Shown: positions 10,140-14,393 of the stretch, one piece after another | Numbering within the stretch: the first letter of the stretch is position 1 | How the letters are laid out: every line of letters begins with the position of its first letter | Assembly: GCA_902621675.1 (NCBI GenBank) | Contig: CACNMX010000011.1 | Location: 1-37,473, forward strand | DNA from: an uncultured Prochlorococcus sp. | GTDB taxonomy: Bacteria > Cyanobacteriota > Cyanobacteriia > PCC-6307 > Cyanobiaceae | DNA: 37,473 bases | Direction of reading: 5' to 3' | The notes under the pieces: model-generated | The model's database searches: none | Seen by the model: the letters and a program-made list of their open reading frames with translations, nothing else | Told to the model about the DNA's origin: nothing | Made by a program: the position numbers and the translations under genes

Positions 10140-12173
10140 ATGGTTCATTCTATACATCCAAGAACTATTCAAGAGGTTAAGGAAAAAGCAGATATTGTTG
10201 ACGTTATATCTGAACATATTGTTCTGAAGAAGAAAGGCAAAGAATTTGTTGGGATTTGCCCTTTTCATGATGATACCAAGCCATCTATGACAGTATCACC
10301 TAATAAACAATTTTATTATTGTTTTTCTTGTGGTGCTGGTGGTAACTCTATTAAATTTTTAATGGAATTTACTCGTGCAAATTTTTCAGATGTTGTACTT
10401 TCTCTTGCCAAAAAAAATAATATTAATGTTGAAAATCTAGAGGGACCCCAAGTAGAAGCTTATAAAAAACAATTATCTAGAAAGGAAGAGCTTTATAAAA
10501 TATTAAGAGTCACTAAAAATTGGTTTAAGACTCAATTAAATAATTCTTTTGGTGTTGAAGCTATGAAATATTTAATATCAAAGAGAAACTTGAGTAACAA
10601 GATTATTGATAACTTTGAATTAGGTTTTGCCCCAAATTCATGGAATGATTTATTTAACTATCTATCCAAGGTAGAAAAATTTCCTATCAATTTAATATTA
10701 GCTTCAGGCCTTGCAATTTCTAAAGATAATTCTGACAAGATTTATGATCGTTTTAGAAATAGATTAATTGTTCCAATACATGATATGCAGGGAAGAGTAG
10801 TTGCTTTTGGAGGAAGATCTCTTGATGGTCAGGAACCTAAATACCTTAATTCTCCTGAATCAGAGATATTTGAAAAGGGCAAAATGTTGTTTGCATTCGA
10901 AAAAGCTTCTAGCAATATTAGGAAAAGAGATAAAGCTATTATTGTTGAAGGCTACTTTGATGTTATTTCTCTTCATTCAAAGGGTATTACTAATTCTGTG
11001 GCTTCTCTCGGTACCGCATTAAATAAGTATCAAATTTCCCAACTATGTAGATGTACAGATAATAAAAATATAATTTTGAATTTTGATTCTGATAATGCAG
11101 GTATCTTAGCTACAAAAAGAGTAATTAAAGAAGTCGAGAGTCTATCCATTTATGATCAAATTAATCTTAAGATACTTCAACTTATTGATTTTAAAGATCC
11201 TGACGAATATTTAAATAGTCATACTCCTGAAGATTATTTTAATTTAATTGATAATTCATCCTTTTGGATTGATTGGGAGATTGATCAGATCTTTAAAGAT
11301 AAAGATTTAACTAAATCTGAAATTTTCCAGAGTGTTATTTCTTCATTGGTAAAATTGTTGAGTAAACTACCTCAATCATCAACCAGAACTCATTATCTAC
11401 AAAAAGTTTCCGAAAAATTAAGTAAGGGACAAGCTAGGTTAGCAATACAGTTTGAACAAGATTTAAGAAATCAAGTAAAGGGATTTCGTTGGCATGGTAG
11501 ATCAAAAAAATTTGATCAACCAAATGAAATTTCCCGACGGGAGAAAAATGAATCGGAAATAATTTTTTATTATTTACATTGTCCAGATCTTAGGCTATTT
11601 ATTCGTGATGAATTTCTCAAAAGAGAAATTAATCGTTTTAATACTAGTTACATTCAAATTTTATGGGAAGCTATTTCAAAAATTGAACAAAATAATTTAG
11701 GTTTAAACTACTTAAATGATTTAAAACAATCAAATAGTCAAAATCTTCATAAAGATTTTTCTTCTATTAACTTAATTTCACTTCTGCCTGATTACTTATC
11801 TCTCAATAATCCTGAATCATCAAATAAAATTAATATTTTTATTAATCCAAATGAGTTGTTTTTAACATTGCTGAGTAATCCAAAAGACAATTTATTAGGA
11901 ACATTATCACTTCTTGAGAAATATAATTCTCTTAAAAGATGTAGACACTTAATTGAATCTTGGGGATCTCAAAGATTAAAAACATTAGAAAATTGTATAT
12001 CTATTTTAATTGATAATCCTTCTTCAGGTTCTTCAAATACAAATAAAGAGATAGATGATCTTTTTAAGGATTTAAACTCAGATGCGATCAAATTTCAGGA
12101 ATTATATTACTTAGAAAGGCAACATATTAATTTTTTAGATAAACAACGTTGTGGCAATTTCATCGCTAGTTAA
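10140..12173 (+). CDS. dnaG: DNA primase
   Basis: DnaG makes RNA primers at the fork. The N-terminal CHC2 zinc ribbon uses Cys40, His43, Cys61 and Cys64 (CPFHDD... and CFSCGAGG). The TOPRIM core has Glu270 in IIVEGYFDVISLH and Asp316/Asp318 in NFDSDNAG. The C-terminal 230 residues form a divergent helicase-interaction region rich in Asn, Ser and Leu. Its 677 aa slightly exceed E. coli DnaG (581), as is common in cyanobacteria. It is convergent with the HExxH-protein gene, 16 bases away. Confidence 0.96.
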   Translation: MVHSIHPRTIQEVKEKADIVDVISEHIVLKKKGKEFVGICPFHDDTKPSMTVSPNKQFYYCFSCGAGGNSIKFLMEFTRANFSDVVLSLAKKNNINVENLEGPQVEAYKKQLSRKEELYKILRVTKNWFKTQLNNSFGVEAMKYLISKRNLSNKIIDNFELGFAPNSWNDLFNYLSKVEKFPINLILASGLAISKDNSDKIYDRFRNRLIVPIHDMQGRVVAFGGRSLDGQEPKYLNSPESEIFEKGKMLFAFEKASSNIRKRDKAIIVEGYFDVISLHSKGITNSVASLGTALNKYQISQLCRCTDNKNIILNFDSDNAGILATKRVIKEVESLSIYDQINLKILQLIDFKDPDEYLNSHTPEDYFNLIDNSSFWIDWEIDQIFKDKDLTKSEIFQSVISSLVKLLSKLPQSSTRTHYLQKVSEKLSKGQARLAIQFEQDLRNQVKGFRWHGRSKKFDQPNEISRREKNESEIIFYYLHCPDLRLFIRDEFLKREINRFNTSYIQILWEAISKIEQNNLGLNYLNDLKQSNSQNLHKDFSSINLISLLPDYLSLNNPESSNKINIFINPNELFLTLLSNPKDNLLGTLSLLEKYNSLKRCRHLIESWGSQRLKTLENCISILIDNPSSGSSNTNKEIDDLFKDLNSDAIKFQELYYLERQHINFLDKQRCGNFIAS

Positions 12174-12189
12174 TACAAAAATTTTTAAT

Positions 12190-12657
12190 TTATAGACAGT
12201 ATTTCTTAATCAAGTTTTTAACTTTTTTGGGTTTATCTTCAAGAACATAAGCTTCTACCTCTTTCTCATAAGTCCCAGAAAAATTTGTACTAGAGAACTC
12301 TAATGCTTTTCTTTTACTTTGATGCAATTTGCTTTCTAATTTTTTTATATCCCCTATTGTTTTATTGTTATTACATTTTTGTATCGCATGAGTTGCTTCG
12401 TGTCTTAATGCTTTTCTTATCGCCCTTTCTGTTTTGAAGTTATCTTTATTTGGTTGTTGATTCTTATTTCTATAATTTGTTTTCTTTTTTGCATTTTCAG
12501 TACATATTATTATTTTATTTTCTTTAAAATTATGTAGCCCTTTTATTTCTTTGTTTAATAGGCATTCAATTTTATTTTCTTCAACTATGTAGTTTGATTT
12601 AATTAATAAGTTAAGAATCTCTTTATCTAATTTGCTCAAAAATAATACAAATTCCAT
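12190..12657 (-). CDS. Small HExxH-motif protein, putative metalloprotease, in the umuDC operon
   Basis: This basic 155-residue protein is not recognised as a named family. Residues 81-94 read RKALRHEATHAIQK and include HEATH (86-90), a perfect HExxH zinc-peptidase motif inside a predicted helix. Forty-five residues after His90, EKEVEAYVLEDKP (131-143) places Glu135 where gluzincins or ImmA/IrrE-like peptidases carry a third ligand in an ExEA helix. No signal peptide or membrane span is seen, so a cytosolic location is likely. The ATG lies 10 bases after the umuC stop on the same strand, so it is the probable third gene of an SOS-type operon. Enzyme activity is inferred from motif only; a chance HExxH in a DNA-binding helix remains possible. 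Confidence 0.75.
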   Translation of the reverse strand: MEFVLFLSKLDKEILNLLIKSNYIVEENKIECLLNKEIKGLHNFKENKIIICTENAKKKTNYRNKNQQPNKDNFKTERAIRKALRHEATHAIQKCNNNKTIGDIKKLESKLHQSKRKALEFSSTNFSGTYEKEVEAYVLEDKPKKVKNLIKKYCL

Positions 12658-12667
12658 TTCATTTTGT

Positions 12668-13954
12668 TTACTTCACTATAGTTGGGATTTGTTCTATATC
12701 AGTTGTAGATGAGCGACTTAAGAAATTCTTATTCATCTTCCAACTTTGTGGATTTTTTGTAATGGCCCATGTAATTGCATTGTTATTAAATCTTTTATTT
12801 AAAAAATCAATCGTTCTCATAAGATTTGCTGATTTTTTTAAGTCTTTCTGAGATTTGTAATTGATAACTGATTGCTGTAAGTATTCGCTATTAGTTAAAT
12901 CCTGCATTAAAACACCAGCTTTTGAGAATTTATATTTGGGATTATAAATTTCTTCAGACAATTCAACTACTATTTTTAAAATTTTATTTGTGTCATCTGT
13001 TGCATTTGTAAGTTTTCTATGAGCACTTCTTTGATAATTTTGACTTGAATATTTACTGGTTCTGGCAAATACTCTAATATCAGATGATTGCAAATTCTGA
13101 CTTCTCATTTTTTCAGAGGCTTTTATTGCGTGAGTTGCTAGTGCTTGAGTTAAGTCTTCTAATTTTGTGATAGGCGTGCCGAAACTCCTGCTCACCTGAA
13201 TTTCTTTTTTTGATTTCTTGTTTTTTTCTATGGGCAGGCATCTATAGCCTTTTAGTTCTAATTGCAGTCTTTTCCCTACGATGCCTAATTTCTTAATGAT
13301 TTCATTTTCTTCCATATCTCTTAGTTCTCTCGCATTTTTAATACCTTTACTTTGCAACCAATTAGAGGTTTGTTTCCCGACTCCCCATATCTTATCTATA
13401 CTAATTCTTTTCAAATAATTATTCTCATTTTCGGTTCTAGCTAAATCAAATATTCCAGCTGAATAATCAATATTTTTAGCTAGTTTATTAGCAATTTTTG
13501 CTCTTACTTTATTTTCTCCTATTCCTACTGTTATGGTAATCCCTAGATTCTGATATATTAATGATCTCATGCTTCTTGCCCAAGGATATAGATTTTCATC
13601 ATTAGGTCTAGAAATCGAGACGAATGCTTCGTCAATAGAATAAATTTCTATTTGTTCACAGTAATTTTTCAGTAAATTCATTAGTCTTCTGCTCATATCC
13701 CCATAGAGCGAGTAGTTTGAGCTTAAGACTGTTACATCTAATTTATTTAGTCTTTCTTTAACCTTAAAATACGGAGTTCCCATTTTAATTTTTAAAGCTC
13801 GCGCTTCAGGGCTTCTTGCAATGATACATCCGTCATTATTAGATAAAATTACTACTGGTTTATTTCTCAAATGAGGATTAATATTTTGTTCACATGACGC
13901 GTAAAAATTATTAGCATCTATAAGAGCTATTGCATCAATATTTGAAATTCTCAT
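12668..13954 (-). CDS. umuC: DNA polymerase V catalytic subunit UmuC (Y family)
   Basis: UmuC performs error-prone translesion synthesis with processed UmuD. The palm holds Asp13 in LIDANNFYASCE and Asp108-Glu109 in YSIDEAF; Tyr18 occupies the steric-gate position. The helix-hairpin-helix region (IDKIWGVGKQTSNWLQ) and little-finger domain (EIQVSRSFGTPI) follow, and the end matches the UmuC-type DUF4113 tail (INFLNKRF-like, then QSWKMNKNFLS). At 428 aa it is complete. Its ATG overlaps the umuD stop in ATGA, indicating translational coupling. Confidence 0.96.
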   Translation of the reverse strand: MRISNIDAIALIDANNFYASCEQNINPHLRNKPVVILSNNDGCIIARSPEARALKIKMGTPYFKVKERLNKLDVTVLSSNYSLYGDMSRRLMNLLKNYCEQIEIYSIDEAFVSISRPNDENLYPWARSMRSLIYQNLGITITVGIGENKVRAKIANKLAKNIDYSAGIFDLARTENENNYLKRISIDKIWGVGKQTSNWLQSKGIKNARELRDMEENEIIKKLGIVGKRLQLELKGYRCLPIEKNKKSKKEIQVSRSFGTPITKLEDLTQALATHAIKASEKMRSQNLQSSDIRVFARTSKYSSQNYQRSAHRKLTNATDDTNKILKIVVELSEEIYNPKYKFSKAGVLMQDLTNSEYLQQSVINYKSQKDLKKSANLMRTIDFLNKRFNNNAITWAITKNPQSWKMNKNFLSRSSTTDIEQIPTIVK

Positions 13955-14367
13955 AAATAGCTATGTATTGAATAAATAACAACTCCCCATATCTGTACAT
14001 CAATATGGTTTTTAAATCTAAAATCTGGATAATTATGATTTTCTGCTTTTAAATATAATTCATTATTTTTTATAGATAATCTTTTTATTGTAAATTCTCC
14101 GTCTATCATTGCAATGATGATATTCCCTGGCCTGGCTGTTAAGCTCTTGTCTACTATTATTAAATCTTTATCTTTAATTCCTGCATTTATCATTGAGTCA
14201 CCTTTAACTCTAAGAAAAAAAGTGCTAAACGGATTAGATATTAAATGTTCGTTTAAATCAATATTTTCTTCTGTATAGTCATCTGCAGGAGAAGGAAACC
14301 CTGCTGATACCGAATCAGTTAATAAGGGGATTTTAAATTTTTTAGTAGTTGAATCAGAAGAATCCAA
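13951..14367 (-). CDS. umuD: UmuD-type self-cleaving S24 peptidase, pol V accessory subunit
   Basis: This LexA-like protein is expected to cleave itself when RecA filaments form, giving UmuD' for pol V. The cleavage dipeptide is Ala22-Gly23 in SAGFPSPADDY (E. coli has Cys-Gly in the same context). The catalytic pair is Ser58 in KGDSMINAG and Lys95 in GEFTIKRL. At 138 aa it matches E. coli UmuD (139). There is no DNA-binding domain, so it is not LexA. The only usable start is TTG at 14367; no ATG or GTG occurs before the cleavage site. The LexA-box-like palindrome lies 12 bases upstream. Confidence 0.95.
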   Translation of the reverse strand: MDSSDSTTKKFKIPLLTDSVSAGFPSPADDYTEENIDLNEHLISNPFSTFFLRVKGDSMINAGIKDKDLIIVDKSLTARPGNIIIAMIDGEFTIKRLSIKNNELYLKAENHNYPDFRFKNHIDVQIWGVVIYSIHSYL

Positions 14368-14379
14368 GGTTAAATTAAT

Positions 14380-14393
14380 AGTATATATGTACT
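14380..14393 (-). promoter_or_regulatory. LexA-box-like palindrome overlapping the umuD promoter
   Basis: On the minus strand this reads AGTACATATATACT, i.e. AGTAC-N4-ATACT: a 14-bp inverted repeat with one mismatch to AGTAC-N4-GTACT. Cyanobacterial LexA sites have been described with a consensus close to RGTACNNNDGTWCB, which this meets except for one base. Its last six bases, TATACT, would double as a -10 element, so bound repressor would block RNA polymerase. The predicted transcript then starts about 14373, only a few bases before TTG 14367. Confidence 0.65.

Follow-up and report, generated by a model that had tools for sequence, protein, structure and literature searches.

A predicted zinc peptidase gene behind umuDC in Prochlorococcus and its relatives beside the cyanophage sliding clamp

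Why would a umuD-umuC (pol V) locus carry a third gene, and what might its product do? The question is raised by a 37,473-nucleotide stretch of DNA from an uncultured Prochlorococcus sp. (contig CACNMX010000011.1 of assembly GCA_902621675.1, positions 1 to 37,473; hereafter the window), in which umuC is followed by a gene for a 155-residue protein that we call X (12190..12657, minus strand). The answer we lean towards, tentatively, is that this gene behind a LexA-boxed umuD-umuC pair encodes a predicted small gluzincin-type zinc peptidase, which may act on proteins that the sliding clamp holds at the replication fork.

X is the third gene of a umuDC locus

Upstream of X on the same strand lie umuD (13951..14367; Peptidase_S24, 5.2e-34; 163.4 bits against NCBIfam NF007621, whose cut-off is 110) and umuC (12668..13954; Pfam IMS at 2.8e-39, IMS_C, and DUF4113, all over their cut-offs). 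With the NCBIfam UmuC model, UmuC scores 331.6 bits, under the cut-off of 431, so the pol V of picocyanobacteria seems to be rather diverged. The open reading frames bear out the layout given in a preliminary description of this locus: the stop of umuD and the start of umuC share ATGA, and X starts 10 bp past the stop of umuC. The locus shares its gene order, the overlap, and an upstream LexA-like box with umuDC operons and differs from them by the third gene.

The box is a 14-mer at 14380..14393 (plus strand AGTATATATGTACT, one mismatch to AGTACNNNNGTACT). It is the only LexA-like site with at most one mismatch in the window, and it ends at 14393, where the stretch singled out in the preliminary description ends too. 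Boxes with at most two mismatches are found upstream of umuD at all 18 further loci (no more than one mismatch at 15 of them) and at each of the 78 named loci for which there was enough sequence; the background is 62 of 941 stretches of 300 bp from the same loci, true sites included. Judging by its sequence, the tandem of umuD and umuC behind a putative LexA site fits a LexA-controlled umuDC operon. Between 12000 and 14500, no terminator-like sites were found (0.8 expected), and promoter prediction for X told us little, with 17 promoter-like sites where 14.5 are expected.

Three papers bear on the control of these genes. umuCD are predicted to be under LexA in several of the Prochlorococcus examined, though not in all of them (PMC3091678). 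In PCC9511 under added ultraviolet (UV) light, umuC (PMM0937) remained high for 8 h past noon, and according to the abstract, the levels of repair genes shifted only slightly (PMC2921402). In Synechococcus CC9311, which we did not check for X, mitomycin C raises the expression of genes downstream of umuDC (PMC3744912). DNA damage may induce X together with pol V.

X is a real gene. We found 1,188 relatives among 1,580 candidates, and a profile search gave 2,305 among 3,875 (the best 120 were shown in each case). We sampled 150 pairs among 81 high-light sequences; the 139 usable ones have a median dN/dS (ratio of nonsynonymous to synonymous substitution rates) of 0.15, which indicates purifying selection. 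X begins 6-15 bp after umuC in 80 of 80 named Prochlorococcus loci; these are the best 80 of 250 confirmed loci and come from closely related high-light strains, so they are not independent. Across a family sample of 151 genomes, X is present in 55 (E <= 1e-3) and UmuC in 127 (E <= 1e-60). In 43 of the 55 genomes with X, it lies directly behind umuC (only part of umuC was seen in G011 and G041, and umuC is split in G055), and in one more (G116) it ends at a contig edge. As for whether X and umuDC co-occur, all 27 near-complete genomes with X do have UmuC, yet so do 86 of the 94 near-complete genomes overall (counts by eye), so joint presence by itself proves little.

X is predicted to be a gluzincin-type peptidase

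The preliminary description had drawn attention to HEATH at residues 86-90 of X and to a glutamate-bearing helix 45 residues later. Both features hold. H86, E87, and H90 (HEATH codons at 12388..12402, minus strand) form the predicted zinc site and lie in helix 71-95 of the predicted model. E135 (12253..12255, minus strand), 45 residues after H90 in the predicted helix 130-139, is the candidate third zinc ligand; E140 is the alternative. The two histidines, all three glutamates, and four cysteines (C32, C52, C95, and C154) are the same in all 163 aligned relatives.

We obtained two predicted structure models (predicted local distance difference test scores of 88.9 and 96.4). In the second of two structural comparisons, the top 26 rows for X and the top 18 for the phage form (see below) are zinc peptidases. 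These models lead us to predict a small zinc peptidase of the gluzincin type, and we infer that X binds zinc and cleaves protein. The four invariant cysteines may provide redox or cysteine-switch control.

The preliminary description had suggested a search for gluzincin or ImmA folds. The predicted fold looks zincin-like, but X has no Pfam match to ImmA/IrrE, or to any other family, at E <= 1 in a single-sequence scan, and the ImmA/IrrE model is neither among 25 of 45 families nor among 24 families shown for its relatives. Scans of NCBIfam and PADLOC, like a profile search against PDB sequences, yielded chance matches only. phrog_16003, which carries no function, matches X (3.7e-11) and the forms from the phages DSL-LC02 (1.8e-15) and S-SRM01 (2e-10).

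The best solved-structure match of X is IrrE/PprI (matched part of the chain, 31-124 of 247), so the main rival to a role at the fork is that X is an ImmA/IrrE-like regulator protease, which would be made with pol V and would cut LexA, UmuD, or another regulator and so tune the SOS response. IrrE/PprI has extra domains that X is without, and X has the four invariant cysteines. We consider the regulator protease unlikely. UmuD keeps Ala22-Gly23, GDSM, and TIKRL, the cleavage residues of E. coli UmuD, so it can likely cut itself. The cleavage residues of LexA are reported to be conserved in MED4 (PMC2921402, also as cited in PMC3744912).

Another comparison is with Atp23, a mitochondrial protein that has a chaperone or scaffold role beside its role as a protease. 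Among the Pfam families matched by the phage forms, its family, Peptidase_M76 (PF09768), comes up most often; it is matched by 14 of 55 members (E <= 0.1) and by four of five named-phage relatives, over a stretch from C32 through HExxH. All of these scores are under the cut-off (25.2 bits; best relative, 20.3 bits), X itself has no match, and X is tied to replication genes. PF09768 also has no match in the genome of X, but it has none in the control genomes either, so this is uninformative; and families missing from the lists of structural matches, Atp23 included, are not excluded by their absence there. These matches would suit an X that keeps the fold and acts without proteolysis, as a chaperone or scaffold for the assembly of pol V or the clamp. 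We think this improbable: the catalytic glutamate E87 is invariant, and scaffolding would not need it.

Cyanophage relatives follow the sliding clamp

With X as the sole query, a scan of viral sequences gave no relative; alignment queries did. By tblastn, named cyanophages have relatives of X. In DSL-LC02 and S-SRM01, the relative shares one base with the end of gene 45, which encodes the sliding clamp, and in DSL-LC02 it lies among genes for the clamp, clamp loader, DNA polymerase, recombinase, and primase. In SynMITS9220M01, one gene separates the relative from gene 45. The clamps of all three phages were identified by Pfam gp45-slide_C.

We collected 134 distinct viral loci from two overlapping IMG/VR scans (the best 80 of 109 and the best 80 of 223 relatives). 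Gene 45 is matched in 131 of the 134 and ends at most 100 nt upstream of the relative of X in 125; since clamp-linked phage forms were among the queries and each scan kept no more than its best 80, forms located elsewhere are under-sampled in these counts. Of the other loci, six have gene 45 further up, two are missing the upstream sequence, and one (L236) has no gene 45. A TGATG or TAATG stop-start overlap is present in 121 of 134 loci. The 133 full viral proteins form 30 clusters at 70% identity, and 29 of these have a clamp-adjacent member. Against our expectation, the nearest phage branch of the X family follows gene 45 in T4-like cyanophages, mostly with a 1-nt overlap.

None of the 134 viral loci has a match to umuC or umuD, and the neighbor there is the clamp, which argues against the regulator protease. 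The preliminary description had named a repressor, UmuD, and stalled-fork proteins as possible targets, and the first two are now disfavored, by this result and by the cleavage residues that UmuD keeps. X is found with a bypass polymerase in the host and with the ring that carries the polymerase in the phage. The two ties came to light by separate routes, and what they have in common is the clamp-bound complex at the fork. The two ties together favor clamp-bound fork proteins over LexA or UmuD as the target.

Prochlorococcus-type and phage copies group apart

We built a tree with 96 rows. One clade, of 53 rows, unites the Prochlorococcus-type copies (98/86), and a second holds the clamp-linked phage copies (31 of 33 phage rows and two host-contig copies, 100/96); the two clades join at 91/67, with a midpoint root and a bootstrap that is not fully settled. 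The SynMITS9220M01 type and the leader-bearing relatives described below fall outside both clades on long branches.

The two host-contig copies are from larger genomes (G072 and G080). They lie inside the phage branch and thereby favor another possibility: the host copy would be a captured phage gene that keeps a phage-type job, either on the clamp's other role or on host proteins at take-over. The adjacency to the clamp in viral loci also fits, as does the activation of T4 late transcription by gp45 (PMC2988020). Nevertheless, we consider this very improbable. The umu-linked copies and phage copies are in separate clades, so there was no recent capture of the former. Separately, we note that the phage-type copies at L125:4178-4582 and on L126 (G080) are on possibly viral contigs of a cyanobacterial assembly, and that one of them has an internal stop.

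In a search of the phylum, 56 of 292 genomes have relatives of X (E <= 1e-3), but outside the small-genome group these are mostly weak. The few that we inspected there have leader-like or anchor-like N-termini, by eye. Longer relatives of this kind, with HE[SAV]xH..Q.C, are found in other cyanobacteria at L299:424-1767, L300:1498-2295, L301:1228-1998, and L127:4135-4905. One genome (G186) has five matches.

A possible role at the replication fork

If X is made at the fork together with pol V, then it could cut the bypass polymerase held at the clamp once the lesion has been bypassed, which would end error-prone synthesis. Alternatively, it could clear proteins that are stuck on or cross-linked to DNA. 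In eukaryotes, Spartan works in a comparable way with PCNA and bypass polymerases. The phage forms would serve the phage's own replisome, with its gp45 clamp.

Several observations weigh against this proposal. The structural matches are weak (best Foldseek E values, 0.46 and 0.51; Z scores under 8). By eye, we saw nothing that we would claim as a clamp-binding motif at the N-terminus of X, at the C-terminus of gp43, or in the part of the T4 literature consulted. Many Synechococcus have umuDC without X. X is away from umuC in 11 of the 55 genomes that have it, and no LexA-like box with at most two mismatches lies upstream of any of the 14 such copies tested. Some phage relatives are also away from the clamp (in ACG-2014f, S-CBP42, and, by fold, gp14 of Syn5). 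Given these and the leader-bearing relatives in other cyanobacteria, work at the fork is not the job of the whole family.

The copies away from umuC and the leader-bearing relatives would also be expected if X has an unrelated job and sits behind umuC by an accident of descent. We think this distinctly improbable because of the tight spacing in the 80 high-light loci, related though those strains are, and because of the separate tie to the replisome in phages.

A more specific version of the fork proposal, which we regard as doubtful, is that X and its cyanophage sisters are the prokaryotic counterpart of Spartan: clamp-guided, redox-switched minigluzincins that would strip bypass polymerases and DNA-stuck proteins from UV-damaged forks. 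Spartan, which carries a PCNA-binding box, is said probably to remove bypass polymerases, and a cysteine switch restrains Wss1 (PMC4559962). As is predicted for X, Spartan (SprT) and Wss1 (WLM) are small zinc peptidases, and both belong to DNA repair. The comparison is one of how the proteins might work: the X family has only chance-level matches to SprT-like and WLM (best E values, 0.07 and 0.0079; two of 55 members each at E <= 0.1; none for X itself), and inspection by eye gave no clamp-binding motif that we would claim.

If X does act on clamp-held proteins, then a bacterium and cyanophages share a protease dedicated to the fork, which goes with pol V in the host and with the sliding clamp in the phage, in a role so far known from Spartan in eukaryotes. 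Pol V would have a third partner in Prochlorococcus, T4-like cyanophages would have an added replisome gene, and a gene whose public records now read "serine hydroxymethyltransferase" or "hypothetical" would have a function. A true counterpart of Spartan would serve both the most abundant photosynthetic cell and the phages that kill related cells.

Annotations and neighboring genes

Among the matches listed, the few names given to close relatives of X are "serine hydroxymethyltransferase" and "hypothetical protein". The former does not fit a 155-residue HExxH protein, and on P0059, P0119, P0194, and WJZ48381.1 (OR032571) it is apparently a misnaming that has spread. The listings and passages that we searched, mostly without subscription papers, have no description of X; nor did we find anything there on PMM0936, which would be X of MED4 by guess, given that umuC is PMM0937.

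The gene between gene 45 and the relative of X in SynMITS9220M01 (L033:3401-4000, MT408532) is annotated as DenV. We rejected it as a link to UV repair since its only Pfam match is a 2OG-Fe(II) oxygenase (E = 1.9e-4, below the cut-off). A similar-looking open reading frame of 199 residues is in the same position in L258.

Among the copies of X away from umuC, one (L131:4065-4526) is about 150 bp behind a 778-residue open reading frame resembling, by eye, a ribonucleotide reductase, and the others have unrelated neighbors.

In the window, X converges with the primase gene dnaG (10140..12173, plus strand). We chose 20 umuC loci, from 15 genomes without X and five with X elsewhere; dnaG is nearby in 16, X is behind umuC in none, and by eye we saw no degenerate X in the gap between umuC and dnaG at 17 loci. 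A recurring open reading frame of about 98 residues (..NHLWP.FVERLG..) is located in this gap on the strand of dnaG (L302, L304, L305, L309, L311, L312, L316, L317, L320, and L321). In L304 and L311, the gap also has a 102-residue open reading frame with HE[ST]TH, CxxC, and a hydrophobic tail, which is unlike X by eye.
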